NCBI GenBank assembly: GCA_019261985.1
Contig: JAFAQY010000018.1
Span: 1 to 64,000 of the forward strand
Reading direction: 5' to 3'
DNA length: 64,000 nt
Origin: Bryobacterales bacterium
Lineage (GTDB): Bacteria > Acidobacteriota > Terriglobia > Bryobacterales > Bryobacteraceae
Made by a program: the position numbers and the translations under genes. How positions within the stretch are numbered: the first letter of the stretch is position 1; every line of letters begins with the position of its first letter. Under the pieces are notes generated by a model, which was given only the letters and a program-made list of their open reading frames with translations, did no database searches and had not been told where the DNA came from. This document shows, piece after piece, positions 19,258 through 36,097 of the stretch.

Positions 19258-20556
19258 TCACGGTTTCTCGTTTTCCGCAATTGGCAGTGTCAAATAGAAA
19301 GTCGCCCCCGCGTCAGGCTGCGACTCGACCCAGAGTCGGCCGCCATATCGTTCCACGATTCGCTGGCAGATCGACAGGCCAATGCCGGTCCCCGGAATTT
19401 TTGTGCCGTGCAGACGCTTGAACACGCCAAAAATCGTCTGGTGGTACTCAGGATCGATGCCCATGCCGTTATCGGATACAGCAATCCGCCATTGGCTCCC
19501 ACATTTTTGCCCGGAAATCCGGATGCAAGGCGGCGATGGACCCCGGTACTTGATCGCGTTGCCAATCAGATTCTGAAAGAGCTGAATGAAGTGGACCTCC
19601 TGGCCTACGACCCTCGGAAGAGGGTCGCTTGTGACAGATGCTCCACTCTCCTGTATCGCCTCCTTCAGGTTTTTGAGCGCGCTATTGAGCGCATCATTCA
19701 GGCCGATGCAATGTGAGGGCTCCCCTCCGGTCTGCGCGATGTTGATGTAGGCAAGCAGGCCCAAGAGGAGATTCCGCATGCGGTCCGTGCCCTGTTCAAT
19801 GAAGCCGGCCCACCGCGCTGCTTCTCCGTTCAATTGCTCCCCAGCCCTTTGGACGAGGAGTTGGGAATAGACGGTGACCGTGCGCAGCGGTTCCTGGAGG
19901 TCGTGGCTAGCGGCGAAGGCGAACCCTTTCAAATCCTCGTTCATCCTGTGCAGCGCTGAGGCCGCGTGCTGTAATTCCTGATTCGCCCGATCCTTCGCTC
20001 GTCCGGTTTCTTCCAATTTCACTACCGCGTCTTCGTATTGGCGCGTTCGGTGGTTCTCTCTCAGAAGAGCATCCCCGAGGACTTGCAGCAGTTGGCCATT
20101 CGAGGCGAGCCTGTCCCTGGAGACGGGCTTTTGCGCACGGGCAACCTCCCAGAGACGGTCGAAACTGATTCCGGAATTGCGCGCCAGACGCTGGACTTCG
20201 GATAATTGAGAGAAATCTACGAAGGCATAGCCTCCCACGGCCGCTCCCACCATCTCGCCATCGAGCATCAGCGACGTTCCAATGACGGACAGGCCGTAAA
20301 ACTCGGACACTATCACGGCGGGACGGTCGTTGGTCTGTGCGACACAGCGGCGGGCACACTCGCCGAACATTCCTGGATCGTATCCGTTGGTTTCTGCGAA
20401 CAACTGGAATAAAGGGGTGGGATGGATCGGGCCGAAGATCACGTGCGCGTCGGAATCGAACAGCTTCATCGTAAGGTGGGCCGCATTGCCATAGCTCTCC
20501 AGCGCCCGATTCCAAAGCTCGGAAGCGAAAAGGACGTCATTCCATGCGGTCGCCAT
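19258..20556 (-). CDS. Sensor histidine kinase with PocR-like N-terminal domain
   Basis: The 432-residue kinase starts at 20556, with AAGGAG just upstream. Residues 1-150 resemble a PocR sensory domain (MKLFDSDAHVIFGP, FGECARRCVAQ, VGAAVGGYAFVDFSQ). A coiled coil (LEETGRAKDRANQELQHAAS) follows. The HisKA motif is ASHDLQEPLRTV, of the phytochrome-kinase subtype. The ATPase part has NLIGNAIKY (N box), DNGMGID (G1) and GTGIGLSICQRIV (G2). No membrane segment, so the signal is probably cytoplasmic. The start overlaps kaiC by 20 bases, which ties the kinase to the KaiC-like protein. Confidence 0.8.
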   Translation of the reverse strand: MATAWNDVLFASELWNRALESYGNAAHLTMKLFDSDAHVIFGPIHPTPLFQLFAETNGYDPGMFGECARRCVAQTNDRPAVIVSEFYGLSVIGTSLMLDGEMVGAAVGGYAFVDFSQLSEVQRLARNSGISFDRLWEVARAQKPVSRDRLASNGQLLQVLGDALLRENHRTRQYEDAVVKLEETGRAKDRANQELQHAASALHRMNEDLKGFAFAASHDLQEPLRTVTVYSQLLVQRAGEQLNGEAARWAGFIEQGTDRMRNLLLGLLAYINIAQTGGEPSHCIGLNDALNSALKNLKEAIQESGASVTSDPLPRVVGQEVHFIQLFQNLIGNAIKYRGPSPPCIRISGQKCGSQWRIAVSDNGMGIDPEYHQTIFGVFKRLHGTKIPGTGIGLSICQRIVERYGGRLWVESQPDAGATFYLTLPIAENEKP

Positions 20557-22075
20557 CGGCAGAAACTCCTTCTTCTCGTTCGCGAGGGCGCCGCGTCGGC
20601 GCGCGTGAGACAAGACCGGCATAACTCGAGAACGGCCGTTTTGCCGCTGGAAGCGTTCGCGGCAGCACGCGCAGACCCTGACCGTTCACAATTTCACATT
20701 CGTGCGTGACGCGGTCGACAGGATTCGCCCGCATTTTAGCGATCGTGAGCCCAAGACGGAACGCATCACCCAGCTCGACCCAGTTCATCAGGATGATGTT
20801 GTCTACGAGCGAGCTCAAGGCGAACTCGCCCATCATTGAAGCCATGCCCAACATCTCGGGATTTTCGTGGTTGTACACCGCCGCAATTTGCTCCTCCTTC
20901 ATCAGAGCGACCAACGCATGAAAAAAATCCCGGAAGATGCGTCCCCCGGTGCCGAGAGTCGATCCATACGTGGACAGGCTGTCTATGACCACGCGTTTTG
21001 GTTTGAACTCGTGGACAAGCCGTTCGATATGGTGAAAATGTACATCCACTTCAATTTCCTGCGGCGGTTCGTATTCTACATGAACCAGACCGTTCTTGAT
21101 CAGCTCCTCAAGCTGGATGCCGATGCTGGCGGCATTGCGCAGGATCTGTGGAACCTGCTCGTCGAGGCTGAGCATTAAGCCGCGCTCGCCCCTGCGCGCG
21201 CTCTCGGAGAGGTACTGGAGCGCCATCACGCTCTTGCCGACGCCCGAAATTCCAGCGACTACGGTGGTGCTGCCTAGGAAGTATCCCCCGTTCAGAAGCT
21301 CGTCTAACCCCGGAATTCCCGTCGGTACACGTGTATCCGGATCGAAGGCTGCGGCGCGGTCACGGCTCGCCTTGCGCGGGGCTTGGACGCGGCGGTACAC
21401 CTGGACGCCCTGGCCATCGACGATGCGGAACGTGTGCCGCCCCATTTGAAAATCCTGCCCTCGCGATTTTACGACTTCAATCGACCGGCTGATCGCGCGC
21501 TGCGTGTCCTCCATCTTGAGCCGGATTACGGTGTCGGCAATCGATTCCTCCGCGAAGGTGCCGTTGACGTTCCCATCATTGAACGATGCTTCAACCGCCA
21601 GAACGGCCGTCAGATTCTCGCGTTGCAAGCCCTCAGTGAGCACGTGAAAGGCGGAGCGCGTCTCCGGGGTGCCGTTTCCTCCGACAAGCCGGGCGACGCC
21701 ATCGATGAAAATGCGTCTTGCGCCGATTTTCGAGGCTTCTCCCAGGAGCACGCTATCGGCTTGCTGCAATTCCTGCCGTAACACGTCCCGAGTTGTAAAA
21801 ACAATTTTCAGACGGTCCTGCTTTTCGAGCTTTTCGAGGTCCCAGCCAAACCCCAAGGCGTCGCGGAAAAGTTTGTGCGGCGACACCTCAAAAAGCACAA
21901 TAATGCCGGGCTCATCGAACTGGCTCGCGCCGCGATACACGAACTCTACACCGAGCGTGGTTTTGCCGGCGCCGATCGTACCTTCCACCAGGATCACGTT
22001 GCCTCGGGGAATTCCGCCGGGCAGAATCTCATCGAGGCCAGCGATGCCAGTCCTGACGAGATCAGCTTGAGGCAT
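20537..22075 (-). CDS. KaiC-like two-domain RecA-fold ATPase
   Basis: The 512-residue protein has the duplicated KaiC arrangement. The first domain contains GIAGLDEILPGG, Walker A GTIGAGKTT (32-40) and RIFIDG (Walker B, D125). The second contains GIPGLDELLNGG, Walker A GISGVGKS (275-282) and RVVIDSLS. In cyanobacterial KaiC, the catalytic glutamate pair follows strand 2. Here the first domain has LFEVS (E63 then V64) and the second LSLDEQ (D305, E306), so the first site is probably altered. No kaiA or kaiB is nearby. A stress or light-signalling role together with the adjacent kinase is inferred, not a clock. Confidence 0.82.
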   Translation of the reverse strand: MPQADLVRTGIAGLDEILPGGIPRGNVILVEGTIGAGKTTLGVEFVYRGASQFDEPGIIVLFEVSPHKLFRDALGFGWDLEKLEKQDRLKIVFTTRDVLRQELQQADSVLLGEASKIGARRIFIDGVARLVGGNGTPETRSAFHVLTEGLQRENLTAVLAVEASFNDGNVNGTFAEESIADTVIRLKMEDTQRAISRSIEVVKSRGQDFQMGRHTFRIVDGQGVQVYRRVQAPRKASRDRAAAFDPDTRVPTGIPGLDELLNGGYFLGSTTVVAGISGVGKSVMALQYLSESARRGERGLMLSLDEQVPQILRNAASIGIQLEELIKNGLVHVEYEPPQEIEVDVHFHHIERLVHEFKPKRVVIDSLSTYGSTLGTGGRIFRDFFHALVALMKEEQIAAVYNHENPEMLGMASMMGEFALSSLVDNIILMNWVELGDAFRLGLTIAKMRANPVDRVTHECEIVNGQGLRVLPRTLPAAKRPFSSYAGLVSRAPTRRPREREEGVSADGDRME

Positions 22076-23130: not shown

Positions 23131-23672
23131 CTTCCGCTGTCGGACGTCGCCCTCTTGTTCTTAGACATCGGCTTGCGCCTTGGGGATCAGCTTGGAATGG
23201 CCACAGGTTGGCCTGGAACCCGCACAAGGCGCGAAGTTCGGGTTCGTGACTGTGGGCGCGACGAAGGCCAAGAGCCGGAAGTCTCGGAACGTACCTTTGA
23301 GCGAGCGGGTCGTCGCCATGCTTAGGAAGCTTGGCCCGAAGGAAACCGGCTATGTGTTTGTTCGCGGCGATGGCGCGCTGCTGGTAGATTCGCACCTGGA
23401 CCAGCAGCATGACCGCGTGCGGAAGCTGCTCAAGCTGCCGAGTGACTTCGTGCTACACTCGCTGCGGCATACGCCTTGGGGAATCCGGCGCGGATGCGTT
23501 TACGATCATGCGAGTGATGGGGCATTCTACCGTGACCGTCTCAAAGCGGTACGTGCACCCTTCGCCGGAATCTGTTGAGCGGGCGTTCGAGCGCCTAAAT
23601 GCGCTCAAGCTGCAAAAAGTTGCTACAGTTTCCGCTACAGTCGAGCAGGCGGTTTCGAGTGCGATACAGTAA
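23131..23672 (+). pseudogene. Tyrosine recombinase/integrase, two frameshifts
   Basis: Three fragments in three frames give one integrase catalytic domain. LLFLDIGLRLGD (frame of 22933) has the box I arginine. After a frameshift near 23190 comes AKSRKSRNVPLSERV (catalytic lysine strand) and FVLHSLRHT (HxxR). After a second frameshift near 23470 comes MRVMGHSTVTVSKRYVHP (H/W and the tyrosine nucleophile). All six active-site positions can be found, yet no single frame encodes them. The N-terminal arm-binding and core domains are missing or unrecognisable. The stop lies 19 bp before the tRNA-Leu 5' half, the usual position of an integrase beside its attachment site. Confidence 0.82.
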
Positions 23673-23691: not shown

Positions 23692-23730
23692 GCCCGCATG
23701 GCGAAATCGGCAGACGCAAGGGACTTAAAA
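23692..23730 (+). pseudogene. 5' half of a split tRNA-Leu(UAA) gene
   Basis: From GCCCGCA (acceptor strand) through the D arm (GGCGAAATCGGCAGACGC) to the anticodon stem and loop AGGGA-CTTAAAA, then unrelated sequence (GTTAGG). No T arm follows. The anticodon stem AGGGA pairs perfectly with TCCCT of the 3' half at 32614-32618. Acceptor pairing with the 3' half is 5 of 7. The terminal GGACTTAAAA (23721-23730) is repeated at 32604-32613. It is an insertion-split gene and left junction. Confidence 0.85.
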
Positions 23731-23785
23731 GTTAGGTGAGTCTGCCTCCGAAAAGGACGCTAAACTAGGAATGGCATTCAGTCAC

Positions 23786-24107
23786 GCGGGCGTGGCGGAA
23801 TCGGCAGACGCATCGGACTTAAGCGAAACTTGAGTGCTCGCCGGGAAACCGGCGATGCAGAACTGCTCAAATTCGGGGAACTCTGTAACATGGCAATCCC
23901 GAGCCAAGCCCGGCCCGAAACGGCCGGGAAGGTGTAGAGACTAGACGGGCAGCACCTGACACCCGGAGCCATATCCGGACACGGTGAAGGGATAGTCCAG
24001 ACCCCAAACCCCGCCGAACACTGCAGGGGCGGCGAAAGCCGTAGTCGGGTATGAAAATCCGTTGGGCCGCAAGGCTCGTGAGGGTTCAAGTCCCTCCGCC
24101 CGCACCA
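23786..24107 (+). tRNA. tRNA-Leu(UAA) interrupted by a group I intron, CCA encoded
   Basis: Exon 1 is 23786-23820 (acceptor GCGGGCG, D arm, anticodon arm ending CTT). Exon 2 is 24054-24107 (AAAATCCG, a class II long variable arm, GAGGGTTCAAGTCCCTC T arm, CGCCCGC-A-CCA). The acceptor strands pair 7 of 7. The intron splits the anticodon between U34 and A35, the same site as in cyanobacterial and plastid tRNA-Leu(UAA). The spliced tRNA reads UUA and UUG codons. It is encoded 55 bp inside the island that splits another tRNA-Leu(UAA). Confidence 0.92.
23821..24053 (+). ncRNA. Group I self-splicing intron (IC3-like) in tRNA-Leu(UAA)
   Basis: 233 nt, preceded by U and ending in G as group I introns do. 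The conserved core strings appear in order: P (AATTCGGGGAACTC, from 23870), Q (GGCAATCCCGAGCC, 23892-23905), R (GGTGTAGAGACTAGACGGGC, 23931-23950) and S (GAAGGGATAGTCC, 23986-23998). Clear stems are CGCCGGGAAACCGGCG (P2-like) and CCCGGCCCGAAACGGCCGGG (P6-like). No homing endonuclease frame fits inside. Small size and site resemble cyanobacterial tRNA-Leu introns. Confidence 0.92.
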
Positions 24108-24252
24108 CATCCGCAGGATGACCCCGATGGAACCCGGTCGTGGGATTAGGAATGGGCGCTGTACTCCGACCCTCTGTGCGAAAACCGCCCACCATGGTAA
24201 GGTCCTCTTCGGTCACAAGATGAAGGCTACAAAATAGAATTGAGCGATTCCA

Positions 24253-24887
24253 ATGCCAACAGTTGCAGATTCGGCCAAACGGGCAACGCTCATCCGCGAC
24301 GCCTTCCGGCTGGAATGGCTCTCTATCGCGTGGATGGTCATCGAAGGCGCGGTGGCGATCGGCTCCGGTATTGCCGCTCATAGTTTGCTGCTTGTGGCGT
24401 TCGGCATCGAAAGCGTTATCGAACTCGCTTCTGCCTGCGTTCTTGTCTGGAGACTCTCTGTCGAACTGCGCCATGGACAAGCATTTTCGGAGGCTGCCGA
24501 GCGACGCGCCAGCCGGTTAGCGGGCGGCCTCCTTTTTGCTCTTGCGTTGTACGTCGTTGTTGCCGCCGGCAGCGGGCTTTGGCAGCATCACGCCTCTGAC
24601 TTCTCAATGCCCGGTATTGTTCTGGCGCTTACGGCCATGCCCATCATGTACTTTTTATCCATAGAAAGCTGGCCGTGGCCGAACAGCTCGCAAGTCGGGC
24701 GCTCCGGGCCGACGCCATCGAAAGCATCACATGCGGCTGGCTATCATTCGTCGTGGTCCTGGGTCTCGCCGCCCAACTCACCCTCAGCGCCTGGTGGGTC
24801 GACTCGGTGTTCTCGCTTGTCATCGTCTACTTCCTGATAAAGGAAGGGCGCGAGGCCTGGGAAGGCGAAGATTGCGGCTGCCACTGA
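24253..24887 (+). pseudogene. CDF-like cation transporter, one frameshift
   Basis: Two overlapping frames make one membrane protein. 24253-24660 encodes MPTVADSAKRATLIRDAF with hydrophobic helices (SIAWMVIEGAVAIGSGIAA, LLLVAFGIESVIELASACVL, LLFALALYVVVAAGSG, MPGIVLALTAMPIMYF). From about 24660 the reading continues in another frame as AEQLASRALRADAIESITC, then further helices, ending GREAWEGEDCGCH. The joined product, about 210 residues and six helices, resembles the CDF heavy-metal efflux family. The shift lies near a run of five T (about 24650). It may be real decay or a sequencing error. It heads the metal-resistance cargo of the island. Confidence 0.7.
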
Positions 24888-25157
24888 CCGGCGTGCCGCT
24901 AGCATATGAGAGAGGACGGGCCGCAGTGATCTACCGCGTTCGGAACAGCCCTGCGGGAATCGTCCAGACTGACGCAAGCGCCCCAATCTTCGCGCCGACC
25001 CCGATGCATCGGGATATTATGGCCGAGATGCAGATGGTGAGCACGGTAGCGTTATTCCTCGTAAGCTGTCCGTTTGGTCTTCGGGAACCCCAAGCTTCCG
25101 GAGAATCATAGGACACCCAAGTGAACGCTAGCCATACGGTGTCGCCAACAACGAATT

Positions 25158-26353
25158 TTATCGGCGGCCCTGCAAACCGCGCAGTTCGGCTCGGGCGCTC
25201 AAGTACTCGGGAAGAGTAATCTGTCGAGTACCAACGACGCGTTCGAAATCCGAGAGCGCCCCGTGAATATCATGGTTGATGAGGGCCTGCGCCCCTGCGT
25301 AGAAATATCCCTGACATTCCCGCTGTGTGTTGACAGCCGAACGTGCCGTTACTACCGACGCTAGAAAGTCGTCGCGCTTAAGCTGGCCGCTCAAGAAAGC
25401 TGCGATGCGCGCTGGCCAGTCGTCCTGTACTTTCTCTGATCTAATGGACAGTGCCGCAGCGATTCCTTCCCTTCATCCATCTCGTTCAAGCGCAAGTGGA
25501 CCAGCGCGGTCCTTATGCGCGCATACGTCTGATCGTTCGGGTCGATCTGTATCGCCTTCGCGAAGTCGGCTAGCGCTTCCTTCCACGCTCGGCGGTCGTA
25601 GTATAGGCATCCTCGACGGTACAAAGGGCCTGGGTTCCGCGGCTCAAATTCTATAGCCTGCGTGAAGTCGCCAAGCGCGGCATCGTCTTTGTCTTGTTGC
25701 CGATAAGCATCCGCCCGAGCGGCGTACATGGCCGCAGATTTCGGATCACGTTCGATTGCATTGTTCAAATCTGCCAATCCCCCGGCCCCATCTCCGGCCT
25801 CGATTCGGGTGACGCCGCGATCAAAATAACCTCGCGCATTGGACGGATCCAACTCGATCGCACGGCTGTACTCCGCCAGTGCTTCTTGAAGATTGCCGTT
25901 CAGTCGTTGTGCGGTTCCGAGATTACGGACCGCTTCCGCGTATTGCGGATTGAGTTCGAGGGCGGTTGTGAAGTCTGCGACGGCGCCATCTAGATCCTTG
26001 TTTCGCATCCGCTCAGCGCCTCGGTTATTGAAGCTGGCGGGGTTCTTCGGGCTGAACGCAATAGCTGCCGAGTAATCCGCAATCGCGCCGTCGACATCGC
26101 CAGTCGCCGAGCGGCAGTATGCGCGCCTCACGTGTGCCACAGCACTCTCTTGACCGGCTGCGAGCACTCGATCAATCTCGGCGATGCATACCGCGTAATC
26201 CTTCGTTTTCAGCTTTTGTATGGCCACACTGACCGAACCTGGTTGTCTTGTCTTCGTGCACGTAATTAGCGAAAGCAACGTTGATGCGATCAGCGCTGCG
26301 TGCAGAAATTGCTTCGAGATCTTGCCACCACAGGAATGACAGATTTTCATCAC
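25158..26353 (-). pseudogene. TPR-repeat lipoprotein-like gene, one frameshift near the 3' end
   Basis: The main frame (25391-26353) encodes a signal-like start (LIASTLLSLITCTK, lipobox-like LITC) and at least seven TPR units of the type GDVDGAIADYSAAIAFSPKN. After about 25450 the frame shows unrelated residues, while the next frame reads EKVQDDWPARIAAFLSGQLK and continues to 25158 (GYFYAGAQALINHDIHGALSDF, LRGLQGRR), a natural TPR-protein ending. One indel near 25450 therefore breaks the gene. Outer-membrane or periplasmic scaffolding is the usual role of such proteins. Divergent from the efflux operon. Confidence 0.65.
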
Positions 26354-26433
26354 GTATTCCGCCGAATCTCCGGATTACAACTGCCAGGATCCAGTTCGCT
26401 ACTGTCCGTGCCATTATAAGAGAGAAAGATCGA

Positions 26434-26736
26434 ATGGCGTCCTGGGCTACAATGCGGCGCGCGGTCACGGTTCTCGTGCTGCTCATGGCGGCGACCGAAA
26501 TTTTTGCCTGTCAGCTCATCTCGCCCGATTCCTGCATCTTTTCAAGCCACAGCACGTCCGACTCCAGCGAAGGCGGTTCGGGCGACGGGTGCCTGTGCTG
26601 CTGCGCGCACATTGTGGTTGTGCCGCCGGTAACGCCTCTTGCTCCTCTCGGTTTCATTGCCCGCGCTGTTCCCTTTGACGAGATTCAGACTCCTGAATTC
26701 CGCACCATCGATATAGAGCATCCTCCCCGCTTCTAG
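26434..26736 (+). CDS. Small secreted Cys-rich protein upstream of czcCBA
   Basis: A 100-residue protein beginning MASWATMRRAVTVLVLLMAA, a signal peptide. The mature part has CQLISPDSC, a Ser/Gly-rich spacer and a dense CLCCCAH cluster, then a Pro-rich hydrophobic tail. Six cysteines and a histidine in a short exported protein next to a heavy-metal efflux operon suggest periplasmic metal binding, but no known family is recognised. It ends 41 bp before czcC and reads in the same direction, so it is likely the first gene of the efflux operon. Confidence 0.6.
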   Translation: MASWATMRRAVTVLVLLMAATEIFACQLISPDSCIFSSHSTSDSSEGGSGDGCLCCCAHIVVVPPVTPLAPLGFIARAVPFDEIQTPEFRTIDIEHPPRF

Positions 26737-26777
26737 TTCTCCTCGCCACTAGTTGATTTTGTTTCAAAGGAGATTCC

Positions 26778-28070
26778 ATGAAGAGGAACTGTATCCTGCC
26801 TCTTTGTTTGGGCGCCTTGTTTACGTGCGTTCCGGCAAAGCCGCAAGAAAACACTCAGACCGCGTTGGACGAACTGGTGCGCACCAGTCTGAATAGAAAT
26901 CGCGAGGTGCAGGCCTTGCGCCAGCGCGTCACACAGGCACGCGGGCTGTCGCAGCAAGCAGGTGTGCGTCCAGCACCGAGCGTGGAGGCCGAGGGGCGTA
27001 GTGGCTCGCCGCTCGGCAGTCCCGGCGATCAGGAATTCTCAGCCGCCTTTGTCCAGCCCATCGAGACTTTTGGCAAGCGCAAGAATCGAGTGCGGGTCGC
27101 CGACGTTGCGATAGCTCTAGCGGAGGCCGAACTCAACCAGCGCAGCACCCAAATCGCCTTCGAGATCGAGGCGGGCTATTTGTCTGTCGTCTATGAGAGA
27201 GAGCGGGTCGCCGTGATCGACCGCGTGCGGGACAGCCTGCGGGAATCGCTCAGGCTGACCGAAGCGCGCGTCCGCGAAGGAGACGCGGCGCCCCTCGAAG
27301 CACAGTTGCTTGCGGTCGAGCAGGGCCGGACCGAGGCTCAGCGCGCGGAAGCGGCCGGGAGGCTTGCCTCGGCCGAACTGGAGCTGCGCCGCTTAGCCGG
27401 TTTAACCGAAAGCGACACGCTTCCCGCCATTGGACCTCCGACAGGTGGCCGGGCAGAGCTCTCGCTCGAACAGCTCATATCGCGTGCGTTGGAGAAGCGG
27501 GCCGACTTGCGCGCCGTCCGGCTCCTGGAACAACAGGGCGAGGCGGAAACGGCTCTCGCCAAATCGGAAGCGCATCCCGATGTGACACTCTCTGGCCGAT
27601 ACACTTACCTTCGCGAGAACTTCGAAAACAAGTTCGGCCTGACATCGTCGGGTGCTCTCACGCCGATCCGCGATCAATTCAATACTCTGAGCGTGGGAGT
27701 GTCCTTGCCGCTGGTAACTGAACGAAGGAACAAAGGGGCAATCGAGGCCGCTGCCGCCGGGTCGGCAAGCGCCCGTCTCAAACGCGAACACCTTGAAGCA
27801 ACGATCCCGTTTGAGGTGCGAAGCGCCTACGAACGCTGGACAGCGGCGCAACGAACGCGCGACCTGCTTCGCGACGCCGTCATCGGTCAATCGAACAAGA
27901 ATATTGCCGTCGTAAGAGAGGCCTATCAACTCGGGCAGTTGCGGCTGATCGACGTCCTCAACGAACAGCGCCGCCTCACCGACAGCGAGTTCACGTACCT
28001 GGATGCCCGTGTTGAAGTCGCTCGTGCTCTGGGTGATCTGGAGCGCCTGACAGGAGGATTGTTGCCATGA
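26778..28070 (+). CDS. czcC: TolC-family outer membrane efflux protein (CzcC-like)
   Basis: The 430-residue protein has a signal peptide (residues 1-21), then two long-helix OEP repeats: LDELVRTSLNRNREVQALRQRV with FVQPIETFGKRKNRV, and LEQLISRALEKRADLRAVRL with VSLPLVTERRNKGAIEAA. QPIETFGKR is the typical CzcC/CusC beta-barrel entry. It forms the outer-membrane exit duct of the tripartite metal pump. AAAGGAG precedes the ATG. The stop overlaps czcB by four bases (ATGA). Confidence 0.88.
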   Translation: MKRNCILPLCLGALFTCVPAKPQENTQTALDELVRTSLNRNREVQALRQRVTQARGLSQQAGVRPAPSVEAEGRSGSPLGSPGDQEFSAAFVQPIETFGKRKNRVRVADVAIALAEAELNQRSTQIAFEIEAGYLSVVYERERVAVIDRVRDSLRESLRLTEARVREGDAAPLEAQLLAVEQGRTEAQRAEAAGRLASAELELRRLAGLTESDTLPAIGPPTGGRAELSLEQLISRALEKRADLRAVRLLEQQGEAETALAKSEAHPDVTLSGRYTYLRENFENKFGLTSSGALTPIRDQFNTLSVGVSLPLVTERRNKGAIEAAAAGSASARLKREHLEATIPFEVRSAYERWTAAQRTRDLLRDAVIGQSNKNIAVVREAYQLGQLRLIDVLNEQRRLTDSEFTYLDARVEVARALGDLERLTGGLLP

Positions 28071-29290
28071 AGCCCCTTTCGATAATTATCTGCGCGCTTG
28101 TGATTGTTTCTTGCGGTAAACCAAAGACTGCCGCCGCTCCTGAGGAGAAAGCTGAAGCGACAAAATCAGCCCAGGAAGAGCATGAAAAGGACGAAGCGAA
28201 GGGTGAGGCAGGCACCGTCCAAATCACGACCGAGGCCCAACAGCGCAACGGTATCGTGGTTACGCCTGCTGCCACCACGCCCATGACACAGCAGCTTCAG
28301 GCGACGGGAACCGTGCAGGCAGTCGATAGCAGCATCGCGCATATTCGTCCGCTGACGCGCGGCCGGCTGCAGGACGTTCTGGCTAAACTTGGCGACCGCG
28401 TCACCGCCAATCAGGCCCTCGCACAACTGGACAACATCGAGGCCGGCGACATGATGACGCAGTACAACACGGCTCAGTCGGAGCTACAGCGGCTGAAAAT
28501 CCAACTCGCCGCACAACAGCGCCAAGTGGAACGAAACCGCCGTCTCGCCGAGATTGGCGCTGTGCCCCAGAAAGAATATGAGTTCAGCCTCGCCGAACAA
28601 CAGGGCCAGCAGGAAGGTATCCGAGCGCAGGAGACGACCATCGCGGGGCTGACGGCCCGGTTGCGCCGCTTCGGAATTACTGACCCCTCTGGTAGCGAGG
28701 CTCCCATGACAGCCATTCGCGCCCCGTTCGCCGGGGTCATCATTCGGGTGGCGGCTGCGCCCGGAGATGTCGTCGAGGCCGGCACCGAACTGTTCTCCGT
28801 CGCCGACCTCTCGACGGTTTATGTCCAGGCTCAGGTTTATGAAAAGGACTTAGGCCAAATTCGCGTCGGACAAACCGCGTCCATCAGCATCGATTCCTAT
28901 CCCGGCGAGCACTTCACCGGGCATGTGGCTTCGGTCAGCGACCTGATCGACCCGCAGACACGCACCGCAGCCGTCCGATGCCAGGTCGCAAATCCCGGAG
29001 CCCGTCTTAAGCTCGATATGCTGGCCACTGTCGAATTTCCAACATCGATGAAGCACGCCGCGCTTTCTGTTCCCACCGATGCCGTACAGGACATCGAGGG
29101 TAAACCCACCGTCTTCGTGCGAACCTCGCCTTCACAGTTTTCGGTCCGGACGGTCGAAACAGGTTCGTCCAGCAATGGCCGGACAGAAATCGTTCACGGA
29201 GTAAAGGAAGGCGAGCCCGTGGTGTCGAAAGGCGCGTTCGCCGTCAAATCCGTCCTTCTTGGCAAGGAACTCCAGGAAGAGAAGGAGTGA
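28067..29290 (+). CDS. czcB: RND efflux periplasmic adaptor (CzcB-like), lipoprotein
   Basis: A 407-residue membrane fusion protein. The N-terminal IIICALVIVSCGK ends in a lipobox-like cysteine. An acidic Lys/Glu-rich linker with one His (EEHEKDE) follows. The barrel-sandwich halves GTVQAVDSSIAHIRPLTRGRL and APFAGVIIRVAAAPGDVVEAG flank a helical hairpin, followed by the beta-barrel DLSTVYVQAQVYEKDLGQI. The C-terminal membrane-proximal domain is DAVQDIEGKPTVFVRT. It links the CzcA pump to the outer-membrane duct. It ends 7 bp before the czcA ATG. Confidence 0.88.
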   Translation: MKPLSIIICALVIVSCGKPKTAAAPEEKAEATKSAQEEHEKDEAKGEAGTVQITTEAQQRNGIVVTPAATTPMTQQLQATGTVQAVDSSIAHIRPLTRGRLQDVLAKLGDRVTANQALAQLDNIEAGDMMTQYNTAQSELQRLKIQLAAQQRQVERNRRLAEIGAVPQKEYEFSLAEQQGQQEGIRAQETTIAGLTARLRRFGITDPSGSEAPMTAIRAPFAGVIIRVAAAPGDVVEAGTELFSVADLSTVYVQAQVYEKDLGQIRVGQTASISIDSYPGEHFTGHVASVSDLIDPQTRTAAVRCQVANPGARLKLDMLATVEFPTSMKHAALSVPTDAVQDIEGKPTVFVRTSPSQFSVRTVETGSSSNGRTEIVHGVKEGEPVVSKGAFAVKSVLLGKELQEEKE

Positions 29291-29297
29291 GGCGGCC

Positions 29298-32200
29298 ATG
29301 ATCGACAAACTCATCGCCTGGAGCATCCGCTGGCGGCTCTTCGTTGTCCTTGTCGTGCTCGGCCTCATCGGCGCAGGAATATACGCCGCGATGGGCCTCC
29401 CGATAGACGCTGTTCCGGACGTCACGACCAATCAGGTCCAGATCAACACAGTCGCGCCGGCATTCACGCCGCTCGAAATGGAGCAATACGTCACCTCGCC
29501 GATTGAGGTTGCCATGAGCAGTTTGCCCCATAAAGAGGAGATCCGCTCGCTCTCCCAGTTCGGACTGTCGCAAGTAACGATCATCTTTCCTGATGACGCA
29601 GACCTGTACGCCTCCCGGCAGCTTGTCCTGGAGCGATTGCGAGACGTGGAGCGCGACCTTCCGCCGGGCGTAGCGCCCGAACTCGCACCGATCTCAACGG
29701 GCTTAGGCGAGATCTACCAGTTCACGGTGGAAGATGTGTCCGGCAAAGGTGAGCACTCGCTGATGGAGCGGCGCACACTGCTCGACTGGTTTATCAAGCC
29801 CCAGCTTCGAACCGTTCCCGGCGTTATCGAGGTCAACAGTTTTGGCGGCGAGGAGCAGCAGTATGAGGTTCTGGTCGATCCCGCGAAGCTGACTGGCTAC
29901 GGCCTTACCCTACATCAGGTCATCGACGCGCTTTCAGCGAACAACATCAATGCGGGCGGCGGATACCTCGAACATGGCGGAGAGCAGCAACTGATCCGCG
30001 GTGTGGGCCTTATCCGGAATGAAACCGATATCGGGAATATCGTTGTGTCATCGCACCAAGGAACGCCCGTCTATGTCAGATCCGTCTCGGAAATCCGAAA
30101 AGGCGCGCAGATTCGACAAGGCGCAGCCACGCGCGACGGAAAAGGTGAGACAGTGATGGGCATCGCCATGCTGCTCAAGGGCGAGAACAGCCGCGCCGTC
30201 GCGGAGCGCATCGCCGGGCGTTTGCAGCAGGTGCAGAAGGCCATGCCGCCCGGCGTGAAGATCGAGCCCTTTTACGACCGGAGCACGCTCGTCGACCGCA
30301 CGATCCGGACCGCGACCCGCAACCTGATCGAGGGCGGCTTGGTCGTTATGGCAGTCCTCTTCCTGTTCTTGCTTCAAATCCGCGCCGGTCTGATCGTATC
30401 CTCCGCGATTCCACTCGCAATGCTGGTCGCCATTATCGGCATGCGGTATTTCGGTATCTCCGCAAATCTGATGAGCCTGGGAGCCATCGATTTCGGTTTG
30501 ATTGTCGATGCCGCCGTCATCATCGTCGAAAACTGCGTGCGCAGGCTTGCGGAAAAACGCCGTGAGCTAGGCCGCGCGCTCTCGGGCGAGGAGCGGCGCG
30601 CAACTGTTCGCGAAGCGAGCGTTGAGGTGCGAAAAGCAGGACAGGTTGGCGAAATCCTGATCATCGCTGCTTATCTGCCCATCGTGTCGCTCGTTGGCAT
30701 CGAAGGAAAGATGTTCCGCCCGATGGCCTTCACCGTCATCTTTGCTCTATCCGGAGCTCTCGTGCTCAGTCTGACCCTGATACCCGCCCTGTCCGCACTT
30801 CTGCTCAGGGAGCCGCTGCTCAGGGAGCCGCGCCGAATTCCGAAGGAGCAAGCTCGCGACAAATCAACGCTGGAAGCAGACAATCCCATCGTTCATTTCA
30901 TCGCCCGATTTTATGCTCCCCTGCTGCGCGGAGCGCTACGCCACAGGCGATTGACCGCCCTTGGCGCACTCTTGTTCGTCATCGTCTGCCTCGCTCTTTA
31001 TCCCTATCTCGGAGCCGAGTTCCTTCCGAAACTGGACGAGGGCGCAATTGCGATAAACGTGAACCGCTTGCCCAGTGTATCCCTCTCCGAAGCCGTGCGC
31101 ATGTCGAATGCGCTTGAACAGGTCGTGCGCGAATTTCCAGAGACGCAGACCGTCGTCAGCCGTATCGGCCGACCCGAAATCGCGACAGACCCCATGGGGC
31201 CAAACATGGGCGACACCTACGTGTTCCTGAAACCGATCGGGGAGTGGAAAAGCGCCACGAGTCGCGAAGAGCTAGTGTCGAAAATGGACGAGCGCCTGAA
31301 GGAGAGCGTTCCCACGCAAGCCTATTCGTTCTCGCAGCCCATCGAGTTTCGCATGCAGGAGCTGATCGAGGGTATCGGGGCGCGTTCCGACGTCGTAATC
31401 AAGATCTTCGGGGATGACCTGGACACTCTCCGGGAACAGGCAGGACAAACGGCACGCATCTTGGCCAAGGTGCCTGGTGCCGCCGACGTAAAGGTTGAGC
31501 AGACGAGCGGGCAGCCCGTGCTGCAGGTAACGATTGACCGAGCGGCAATCGCTCGCTACGGCATCAATGTCGCCGACGTTCAACAGGTCATACAGACGGC
31601 TATCGCAGGCACCGAAGCCACCCGCATCCTGGAAGGCTTTCGCCGCTTTGAGCTTGTTGTCCGATTGAAGCCGGAGGTGCGGCAGAATGCGCGCGACTTT
31701 GCGAACCTTCTGGTGAGCGCGCCGAATGGACAACGGATTCCTCTGGCTCAACTGGCGCATATCGGCACGGAAACTGGTCCTGTCGAAATCGCCCGCGAAA
31801 ATGGGCAGCGGCGCATCTCAGTTGAAGTGAATGTTCGCGGGCGCGATATTGGGAGCTTCGTCGAGCAGGCACAAGCGAGTGTCGCGCGGGATATGCAACT
31901 GCCGCCCGGCTACATCATGGAATGGGGCGGTCTCTGGCAAAACCTGGAGAGCGGCCGAAACCGGCTGCTCATTGTCGTGCCGGTCACGTTCTTGCTCATC
32001 TTTATGCTGCTCTTCGCCACGTTCCACTCAGCAAGGCTCGCGACTTTGGTTTTCACTGGCGTCCCGTTTGCGGTGACCGGAGGAATACTGGCGCTTCTTC
32101 TGCGCGGAATGCCGTTTTCGATGAGCGCTGGCGTGGGCTTCATTGCGGTTTCCGGTGTCGCTGTTCTCAATGGTCTTGTCCTGGTCGCGTTCATCGCTCG

Positions 32201-32456
32201 ATTCCGTCAACAAGGAGAGTCGCTTGAAACTGCCGTGTACCAGGGCACACTGCTCCGCTTGCGGCCTGTGCTTATGACAGCCGCAGTTGCCAGTTTGGGC
32301 TTTCTCCCCATGGCCCTCTCAACGACTGCGGGCGCGGAAGTGCAACGCCCTCTCGCGACTGTCGTCATCGGTGGGATCGTTACTTCGACGTTTCTAACAC
32401 TTCTCGTGCTGCCCGCCCTATACCCGTGGTTCGGACGTCAAAGGGTGCAATTATGA
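29298..32456 (+). CDS. czcA: Heavy-metal RND efflux pump (CzcA/HME family)
   Basis: 1052 residues from ATG 29298, with 12 expected membrane helices and two large periplasmic loops. N-terminal LPIDAVPDVTTNQVQINT is the CzcA family signature. The proton-relay helix reads GAIDFGLIVDAAVIIVEN, carrying the two aspartates and glutamate typical of divalent-cation (Zn/Co/Ni/Cd) pumps. Export from the periplasm or cytoplasm through CzcB/CzcC is assumed. The length and the last helix (VVIGGIVTSTFLTLLVLPALYPWF) are complete, so this operon is intact although its island neighbours are broken. Confidence 0.9.
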   Translation: MIDKLIAWSIRWRLFVVLVVLGLIGAGIYAAMGLPIDAVPDVTTNQVQINTVAPAFTPLEMEQYVTSPIEVAMSSLPHKEEIRSLSQFGLSQVTIIFPDDADLYASRQLVLERLRDVERDLPPGVAPELAPISTGLGEIYQFTVEDVSGKGEHSLMERRTLLDWFIKPQLRTVPGVIEVNSFGGEEQQYEVLVDPAKLTGYGLTLHQVIDALSANNINAGGGYLEHGGEQQLIRGVGLIRNETDIGNIVVSSHQGTPVYVRSVSEIRKGAQIRQGAATRDGKGETVMGIAMLLKGENSRAVAERIAGRLQQVQKAMPPGVKIEPFYDRSTLVDRTIRTATRNLIEGGLVVMAVLFLFLLQIRAGLIVSSAIPLAMLVAIIGMRYFGISANLMSLGAIDFGLIVDAAVIIVENCVRRLAEKRRELGRALSGEERRATVREASVEVRKAGQVGEILIIAAYLPIVSLVGIEGKMFRPMAFTVIFALSGALVLSLTLIPALSALLLREPLLREPRRIPKEQARDKSTLEADNPIVHFIARFYAPLLRGALRHRRLTALGALLFVIVCLALYPYLGAEFLPKLDEGAIAINVNRLPSVSLSEAVRMSNALEQVVREFPETQTVVSRIGRPEIATDPMGPNMGDTYVFLKPIGEWKSATSREELVSKMDERLKESVPTQAYSFSQPIEFRMQELIEGIGARSDVVIKIFGDDLDTLREQAGQTARILAKVPGAADVKVEQTSGQPVLQVTIDRAAIARYGINVADVQQVIQTAIAGTEATRILEGFRRFELVVRLKPEVRQNARDFANLLVSAPNGQRIPLAQLAHIGTETGPVEIARENGQRRISVEVNVRGRDIGSFVEQAQASVARDMQLPPGYIMEWGGLWQNLESGRNRLLIVVPVTFLLIFMLLFATFHSARLATLVFTGVPFAVTGGILALLLRGMPFSMSAGVGFIAVSGVAVLNGLVLVAFIARFRQQGESLETAVYQGTLLRLRPVLMTAAVASLGFLPMALSTTAGAEVQRPLATVVIGGIVTSTFLTLLVLPALYPWFGRQRVQL

Positions 32457-32527
32457 CCGCCCAGGATCACGCGCTTAACTTGACGCACCAGAGGCGCTGA
32501 AAAGCTCATGAGCGAGAACCTCAAATT

Positions 32528-32600
32528 TACACAGTTTCTTACACAGTTCCACAGATTGAAAATGTAACTCACGTATTATCAGACAGTTACACGGTTATTC
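32528..32600. repeat. TTACACAGTT-type short repeats beside the right island junction
   Basis: TTACACAGTT occurs twice within about 20 bp (32528-32550), and a variant GTTACACGGTTATTC runs up to the junction (32586-32600). GTTATTCAACGGTTAC lies just after the tRNA 3' half (about 32680-32695). Clustered short AT-rich repeats flanking an att core resemble arm-type integrase sites. That role is inference. Confidence 0.4.
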
Positions 32601-32603
32601 AAA

Positions 32604-32663
32604 GGACTTAAAATCCCTTTCGCCGTAAGGCGAGTGTGGGTTCAAATCCCACCCCGGGCACCA
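32604..32663 (+). pseudogene. 3' half of the split tRNA-Leu(UAA) gene
   Basis: It starts with GGACTTAAAA (the shared core), then TCCCTT (anticodon stem 3' strand), the variable arm TCGCCGTAAGGCGA, the T arm GTGGGTTCAAATCCCAC, CCCGGGC and A-CCA. There is no D arm or acceptor 5' strand upstream. The stem partners lie at 23692-23730. It marks the right island border. Confidence 0.85.
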
Positions 32664-35963: not shown

Positions 35964-36069
35964 GTGGGGCAGGTTGCCAACCTGCGGCGGGTTGCCAACC
36001 CGCCTGCCGTCTTTCACCAACCCGCCCAGCGCGATTGGCAATCGCGCGCAGGTTAGCAACCTGCCCCAC
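35964..36069. repeat. GGTTGCCAACC repeat, full copy
   Basis: GTGGGGCAGGTTGCCAACCTGC at the left and GCAGGTTAGCAACCTGCCCCAC at the right form an outer inverted repeat. GGCGGGTTGCCAACCCGCC and GCGCGATTGGCAATCGCGC form inner hairpins. It lies between the CMD gene and the kinase gene at 36098, about 28 bp upstream of that start. Confidence 0.88.
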
Positions 36070-36097
36070 CGCGGGAGAATGAAATTGGTACTCTCTC

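Follow-up and report, generated by a model that had tools for sequence, protein, structure and literature searches.

How can a genomic island cut a tRNA gene that its host needs, and leave that gene cut? The question is raised by an island in the genome of a Bryobacterales bacterium (assembly GCA_019261985.1, phylum Acidobacteriota), which lies within a tRNA-Leu(UAA) gene in the stretch that we analysed, positions 1 to 64,000 of contig JAFAQY010000018.1 (64,000 nt; hereafter the window). We think it likely that the island is one of a group of related integrative elements that cut tRNA-Leu genes and supply their own tRNA-Leu(UAA) in place of the lost gene, with an intron that splits the core sequence at which the elements integrate and may shield the copy from their integrase. 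For the family as a whole the evidence is sequence comparison, and what we say of splicing, recombination and essentiality rests on inference from it. Genomes are designated by G codes and loci or contig stretches by L codes; the window's own genome, G000, consists of 138 contigs and is 98.8% complete.

A preliminary description of this DNA had taken positions 23692–23730 and 32604–32663 for two parts of one tRNA-Leu(UAA) gene, with a 10-base att-like core at both ends, and had proposed running a tRNA finder on the joined halves. ARAGORN calls the joined halves as tRNA-Leu(taa), and they agree with the intact genes of 13 genomes of the same genus at 75–83 of 89–90 aligned positions, best with that of G001 (83 of 89). 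The core, GGACTTAAAA, lies in the anticodon loop and occurs twice in the window, both times on the forward strand, with 8.9 kb of island in between. The reported decay of the acceptor stem is also borne out, as only five of its seven pairs form. Because this stem reads GCCCGGG/CCCGGGC in relatives and the 5′ half in the window reads GCCCGCA, we attribute both mismatches to changes in the 5′ half, as had been inferred, and the severed gene is therefore probably dead. Neither junction holds a sequence that would restore the tRNA, as the description had stated and as recurs in relatives. The island thus departs from the classic type, in which the target is regenerated at one junction, and has the short core and the unreconstructed host tRNA of tRNA-dependent integration. 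The description further expected an empty site in related genomes: the intact, intronless genes of the same genus supply the gene itself, but no site with the same flanking genes was found when 30 window open reading frames (ORFs) were compared with 40 stretches from relatives. The scattered matches of that comparison we take for paralogues and reject as flank synteny; a sensor-kinase gene like that at 19258–20622 lies near the tRNA site in G010 and G016 as well, at differing positions and orientations, and was likewise rejected as the mark of a same-flank empty site.

The claim that the insertion destroys a tRNA survives in part. The severed gene is probably dead, but the island brings a complete replacement of the same isotype, which the preliminary description overlooked: an intron-bearing tRNA-Leu(UAA) at 23786–24107, inside the island and 55 bp past its first junction. 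Its spliced exons give tRNA-Leu(taa) in ARAGORN with all seven acceptor pairs. Rfam at the gathering threshold and ARAGORN run on the window both miss this gene; it was found by eye and confirmed by a search with RF00028, in which the insert scores 40.5 bits (E 9.7e-9 in a 901-base search; gathering score 50). On that E value, at a score below the gathering score, we rate the conserved catalytic core of a group I intron as present. The intron interrupts the gene in the middle of the core that marks the island ends, and a third copy of the core, incomplete and reading GGACTTAAG, comes with the rescue tRNA. At 71 of 89 positions the rescue tRNA is identical to the joined native halves; judged by its sequence, it is of another lineage than the native gene. 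A pattern search allowing up to two mismatches found no further whole tRNA-Leu(UAA) in G000, and the host does use UUA, which accounts for 47 of the 10427 codons of 16 window ORFs.

Together with the conserved ends and the coupling of integrase, target and rescue tRNA in relatives, the split gene, the rescue copy and its intron suggest the following mechanism. A tyrosine integrase would recombine at the anticodon loop of tRNA-Leu genes, at the core CTTAAAA and its flanks. Integration would cut the native tRNA-Leu(UAA), needed for UUA codons, without rebuilding it, and its role would pass to the element's own tRNA-Leu(UAA), which lies within the element close to its left end, directly behind the integrase gene if there is one. 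A group I intron between the first and second anticodon bases would allow the RNA to splice to a normal tRNA, and in the DNA it splits the core, so that the integrase would meet no intact core. From the sequences we infer that the intron splices, that the rescue copy serves as a working tRNA and that the intron protects it against the integrase.

The same layout recurs in relatives: a severed native gene is followed by an integrase (lost in the window), an intron tRNA-Leu(UAA), the cargo and, at the right end, TTACACA repeats some 80 bp ahead of the core. Because it recurs with an integrase attached, the replacement looks like design rather than accident. Whole split elements on a single contig are the window island, one of 4.0 kb in G028 and one of 3.9 kb in L129; in another family they measure about 27.7 kb (G448) and about 33 kb (G433). 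In G448, a genome of nine contigs, the order is 5′ half, integrase, intron tRNA, genes for a TrwC relaxase and ParB, arm repeats and 3′ half (5 of the 25 listed ORFs were scanned). Because of the relaxase and ParB genes, at least this element may be mobilizable by conjugation.

To examine the coupling, one integrase was used as a query against 399 genomes of the class, giving 31 matches in 26 genomes; 30 of these had loci, and all 30 were inspected. A severed tRNA-Leu(UAA) lies upstream in 10 of the 30, and in nine of those 10 an intron tRNA-Leu(UAA) follows no more than 200 bp after the integrase match ends. A severed tRNA-Leu(CAA) lies upstream in 14, of which one has an intron tRNA-Leu(UAA) downstream (UAA versus CAA targets, Fisher p 7e-5; 3e-5 with genomes counted once). 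The remaining six have no severed half in view, and three of them have an intron copy. An even draw of the phylum found the integrase in 9 and the intron tRNA in 8 of 396 genomes. Seen from the tRNA side, a scan of genome_contigs returned 28 named loci with 29 intron tRNAs, mostly from Acidobacteriota; the others come from Bradyrhizobium, Parvularcula, Gemmatimonadaceae, an alphaproteobacterial metagenome-assembled genome (MAG), a proteobacterial MAG and one genome labelled Actinobacteria. Upstream of the 29 stand a severed 5′ half and core in seven (one decayed), a right end and core in four, a degenerate core in one, an open tyrosine-integrase frame ending 23–59 bp away in five and a broken frame in two. 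In viral_contigs the intron-tRNA pattern was not found; related integrases are present on two viral contigs, one of which also has a rescue tRNA-Leu(CAA).

Four of the five open frames are 63–72% identical to the fifth, that of G013, among them those of Gemmatimonadaceae (70%) and Parvularcula (63%), each adjoining an intron tRNA. All five have Pfam integrase SAM-like domains, not all above the cut-off, and the three integrases scanned match the PHROG 1 integrase at E 1e-29 or better. An AlphaFold2 model of the integrase is of moderate quality (mean predicted local distance difference test score 68, predicted template modelling score 0.43); its Foldseek matches are XerA, Tn1549 Int and Cre, with E values down to 1.7e-8 and low TM-scores (about 0.3 by query), so that this moderate model resembles tyrosine recombinases. 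A search of PDB sequences with the integrase profile gave nothing at E 0.01.

The element ends are conserved as well. The linker between core and rescue tRNA in the window agrees with a left end in G022 at 42 of 56 aligned positions, compared with a mean of 31 and a maximum of 38 in 500 shuffles of the G022 stretch. Right ends have TTTACACAGTTACTTACACAGTTTCACA or a near variant ahead of the core. A loose scan of the loci (at most 7 mismatches) found 16 distinct repeat-like blocks; 13 have CTYAAAA within 130 bp, at an offset of 81 in nine and of 77, 82, 82 and 83 in the others. These repeats suggest integrase arm sites. G010, G022 and G015 (the last over two contigs) have elements in tandem, in which the core links the right end of each to the left end of the following element. 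Some right-end core flanks are unlike those of the host (ATACTTAAAATCC in G015, AACCTTAAAAGTCC in the G010 tandem), and we therefore place the crossover within CTTAAAA, which the intron splits as CTT/AAAA.

In all we found 33 distinct intron tRNA genes and aligned 30, leaving out L122, L131 and L132, the last of which is without the usual letters at the 3′ junction. All 30 have a U–G pair at the 5′ splice site and a terminal intron G, and 24 of 81 predicted consensus pairs show compensatory changes; not every standard group I helix appears in the predicted consensus, which moreover pairs some exon bases with intron bases, so that it speaks for a structured RNA without proving the individual helices. 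Introns are 195–260 nt long in 32 genes.

Rescue tRNAs come in six kinds if the intron copies are counted as one, the other five being intronless. In G330 and G455, where tRNA-Leu(CAA) is the target, a complete tRNA-Leu(CAA) stands near the far end of the element, and a G245 contig has one too, with the anticodon stem GCAGA/TCTGC where the severed host gene has GCGGA/TCCGC. G082 and G066 have a rescue tRNA-Leu(CAA) with the stem GACGG/TCGTC. Two kinds occur in G044, where the element targets are out of view: a CAA copy with CGGGT/ACCCG and an intronless UAA copy (on contig C19) with CGGCA/TGCCG. The rescue tRNA of L237, a contig of the viral collection, differs from its severed gene by a single loop change (GGATTCAAAATCC versus GGACTCAAAATCC). 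None of the six kinds keeps the full GGACTYAAAATCC, and by a stricter measure the 11 bases GACTYAAAATC are broken or altered in five of six (four of the five intronless kinds). That rescue copies are selected to escape the integrase of their element without loss of the tRNA fold, the intron being one way of doing so, seems to us an evenly balanced proposition. The rescue tRNAs of G066 (L253 2254–2340) and G082 (L248 2753–2839) are identical letter for letter in two genera, and run opposite to the integrase in G066 and with it in G082.

The same 101 relatives were searched with patterns for the 5′ half, the 3′ half and the intron tRNA, which matched in 91, 67 and 18 of them, the 5′ pattern picking up tRNA-Leu(CAA) too. 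Within the bacterial family of the window's genome, 14 of 61 genomes have the intron tRNA; an intact intronless gene is missing from 11 of these 14 and from 13 of the other 47 (Fisher p 0.0012), and is thus present in 34 of the 47. Among the 47 genomes at least 90% complete, eight of 10 intron carriers are without the intronless gene and 28 of the other 37 have it (p 0.0022). The two forms thus tend to exclude each other, which at the level of genomes supports a rescue that is required. Severed native halves remain in six of the 11 (the window, G010, G013, G015, G019 and G028), and both halves in four of these (the window, G028 and, each over two contigs, G013 and G015). In G029 (L085 9607–9728), an intact native tRNA-Leu(UAA) is directly followed by an intron copy without the 5′ strand of the acceptor; the exon bases of this copy match the native gene, and the arrangement looks like recombination between the two.

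Several observations weigh against the replacement family that we favour. The RF00028 score lies below the gathering cut-off in 19 of 20 loci, the window included, and passes it in one. A search of G000 found no match to this integrase, so that mobility of the window island cannot be shown. Ten of the 29 intron tRNAs have neither integrase, severed half nor core upstream, some of them at loci with little stored upstream DNA (4 bases in L122). One UAA-targeting element, on G779:C228, has no rescue gene within 700 bp, and an element in tRNA-Leu(CAA), on G245:C9 (L180 4771–6531), carries an intron tRNA-Leu(UAA), perhaps after a switch of target. Three family genomes (G017, G022 and G029, the last with a truncated intron copy) have both forms of the gene, and 13 of 61 fit neither pattern; the patterns are strict, and at least G023 and G031 among the 13 have variant tRNA-Leu genes. 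In five of the 14 intron genomes (G005, G024, G034, G071 and G078) no severed half was found in the stretches and with the patterns used; we read these as decayed elements whose rescue gene stayed. As to immunity, the CAA rescue copy of G330, G455 and G245 keeps the 11 bases GACTCAAAATC, its changes being confined to the adjoining positions. The A next to this stretch is shared by host genes, reading CAGACTCAA, that have been cut in G082 and G079; this kind of rescue copy is therefore not clearly protected.

That last point also favours the strongest alternative, in which the replacement is real and the intron is a passenger, picked up along with an intron-bearing copy and without a protective role. 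The intron sits where tRNA-Leu(UAA) introns usually do, between anticodon bases 1 and 2; an intronless UAA rescue copy exists in G044, and the CAA copies with an unchanged 11-base stretch show that protection would not be general. Against a passenger, four of the five intronless kinds are changed inside the core stretch, which a neutral view does not predict, and no severed tRNA-Leu(UAA) half among the loci fetched had the acceptor stem of the intron copy. We regard a passenger intron as possible, though doubtful. Our own, tentative suggestion, towards which we incline slightly less than not, is that the tRNA-Leu(UAA) group I introns of these bacteria are kept as armour for the attachment site: elements that cut an essential tRNA would spread along with a replacement out of reach of their own integrase, the armour being a core intron or, in sister elements, an altered anticodon stem or loop, and the armoured copy would remain as the sole gene of the host after the element has decayed.

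The remaining alternatives are less likely. The intron tRNA could be the ancestral gene of the host, the island having merely entered an adjacent duplicate; it is indeed the only tRNA-Leu(UAA) found in the five genomes without a severed half. The intact genes of relatives, however, are intronless with a different acceptor stem, and the intron copy accompanies an integrase or element ends in several phyla, which makes an ancestral intron gene improbable. An ordinary island that once restored its tRNA and later decayed is more improbable still: other elements at this site, as in G026 (L105), appear to supply a 5′ half of their own and to leave the gene intact, but the window island has no restoring half at either junction, and non-restoring junctions recur in G028, L129, G448 and G433. 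An assembly artefact, conceivable in a metagenome assembly of 138 contigs, is very hard to maintain when the same design is found in the few-contig genomes G448 and G687 (one contig). The complementary strands of the anticodon stem would allow a split tRNA to be made whole by trans-splicing, which the five-of-seven acceptor stem and the presence of an intact copy render the least credible reading.

In cyanobacteria and plastids, tRNA-Leu(UAA) genes are classic sites of group I introns. The introns described here share their insertion position and small size, but here the intron gene is a spare copy on a mobile element.

The closest known system is tRNA-dependent lysogeny of actinobacteriophages (Guerrero-Bustamante and Hatfull 2024, PMC10865867), which describes cores of 8–17 bp common to the host tRNA gene, a case at tRNA-Leu(CAA), and an experimentally proved need for the phage tRNA in mycobacteriophages. 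Common to both are a tyrosine integrase, a short core, a host tRNA that is not rebuilt and an element tRNA of the same isotype that takes over. In contrast to those phages, the carrier in the window is a genomic island and one relative has relaxase and ParB genes, and the rescue tRNA has a group I intron in the core and often adjoins the integrase. In the portion of that text available, 'intron' occurs once, and no discussion was found of introns or altered cores as a means of protecting the phage tRNA. For prophages in tRNA genes of Sinorhizobium, PMC12429752 reports that features of tRNA-dependent lysogeny are absent. With the tRNA-targeting genomic islands of Islander (PMC4383910), the elements share a tyrosine integrase, a tRNA target and ends marked by tRNA fragments; those islands restore the gene, whereas here it stays cut and a distant copy replaces it. 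Introns have been proposed to block integration into tRNA genes (Randau and Soll, cited in PMC3293823). According to its introduction, that paper saw no direct evidence tying disrupted tRNA genes to integration, and its archaeal model comes from one population. Like ours, the model has integration blocked by an intron placed in the att part of the tRNA gene, and it allows that such introns come with mobile elements; the introns there are archaeal. Judged by titles and the beginnings of abstracts, no paper listed in our literature searches describes intron-bearing rescue tRNAs on islands; in the library searched, group I introns, tRNA-Leu and Acidobacteria were not found together in any paper, nor were tmrB and group I introns.

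If our explanation holds, a mechanism of actinobacterial phages would extend to islands in several bacterial phyla, explaining how a needed tRNA gene can be cut harmlessly and giving a possible reason for a tRNA intron placed exactly in the anticodon. A single integrase, a single core and two tRNA genes would suffice to test the old proposal that tRNA introns guard against integration; the armour reading, if true, would provide a bacterial demonstration of introns guarding tRNA genes and a route for tRNA introns into genomes. Island finders that seek a restored tRNA may miss or misread such elements.

Table 1. Features of the island and its left flank, in window coordinates.
Feature	Coordinates	Strand	Basis
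Remnant, frame-shifted, of a different tyrosine integrase; ends shortly before attL and so lies outside the island	23180–23672	+	Homologue in G016
attL: 5′ half of native tRNA-Leu(UAA), with 3′-terminal core GGACTTAAAA at 23721–23730	23692–23730	+	Sequence; ARAGORN on joined halves
Left-end linker, 55 bp, core to rescue tRNA	23731–23785	+	Match to G022 left end (42/56 aligned positions)
Rescue tRNA-Leu(UAA), 5′ exon, 35 bases, ends GGACTT	23786–23820	+	ARAGORN; alignment of intron genes
Group I intron, 233 nt, between anticodon bases 1 and 2	23821–24053	+	RF00028; overlapped only by mechanical ORFs of the other strand
Rescue tRNA-Leu(UAA), 3′ exon, begins AAAATCCG, CCA encoded	24054–24107	+	ARAGORN on spliced exons
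Cargo ORF, 194 amino acids, without confident family	24253–24837	+	Profile scans
Cargo tetratricopeptide (TPR)-repeat protein	25391–26353	−	Profile scan
Cargo TolC-type outer membrane efflux protein	26778–28070	+	Profile scans
Cargo resistance-nodulation-division (RND) periplasmic adaptor, CzcB/NccB-like	28067–29290	+	Profile scans
Cargo CusA/CzcA-type heavy-metal RND transporter	29259–32456	+	TIGR00914, 1268 bits
Right-end repeats TTTACACAGTTTCTTACACAGTTCCACA, beginning 78 bp ahead of the core; probable arm sites of the integrase	32526–32553	+	Repeat scan of loci
attR: core GGACTTAAAA (32604–32613), then 3′ half of native tRNA-Leu(UAA)	32604–32663	+	Sequence; ARAGORN on joined halves

The heavy-metal cargo named in the preliminary description is evident from the profiles, a CusA/CzcA-family transporter standing beside CzcB-like and TolC-like subunits, and we regard the cargo as predicted metal efflux; no phage genes were found among the window cargo ORFs scanned. 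The ORF of 194 amino acids was considered as a counterpart of the cation-efflux gene of L129 and rejected, the two not being alike. No tyrosine integrase is encoded by the island itself, in contrast to relatives such as G013, G448 and G433, and because the window's genome lacks an integrase match the island is probably stranded, fixed in place. The remnant to its left was rejected as the island's own integrase, as it does not match that of G013 and lies outside the att-bounded segment; its homologue in G016 (L101) stands upstream of an intact tRNA-Leu(UAA), and the remnant suggests an older element at the same site. As the window island has the core and the rescue features and no integrase of its own, we would class it as an integrase-less member of a family that appears to work like tRNA-dependent lysogeny, and not as lysogeny itself.

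Other elements at the tRNA-Leu(UAA) site, in G026 (L105) and G053 (L146), have a severed 5′ half 3–4 kb upstream of an intact gene, as if they had brought their own 5′ half and restored the tRNA. G245, with its element in tRNA-Leu(CAA), has a second element, in tRNA-Leu(UAA), on C31. Elsewhere in the window, ARAGORN calls a 98-base tRNA-Gly on the reverse strand at 35979–36076, which has no Rfam support at the gathering threshold and may be spurious.

Related genes also occur on plasmids, where the intron tRNA of the window matches 1281 of 72,556 records; none of the 30 records listed, out of 1266, showed an empty site. An intron tRNA-Leu(UAA) 77% identical to it lies near trb conjugation genes on a Bradyrhizobium plasmid from a peanut isolate (NZ_CP094524.1; L015 6503–6792). 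A similar intron-bearing tRNA-Leu, about 69–70% identical, occurs on plasmids of Enterobacteriaceae and Acinetobacter (pCTX-M3, NC_004464.2; L016 5834–6299), where it adjoins aac(3)-IId and an ATPase gene, which we take to be tmrB-like. These plasmid genes possibly belong to the same element class. In L016, GGACTTAAAA stands about 160 bp upstream of the intron tRNA, in a stretch that is missing from L017.

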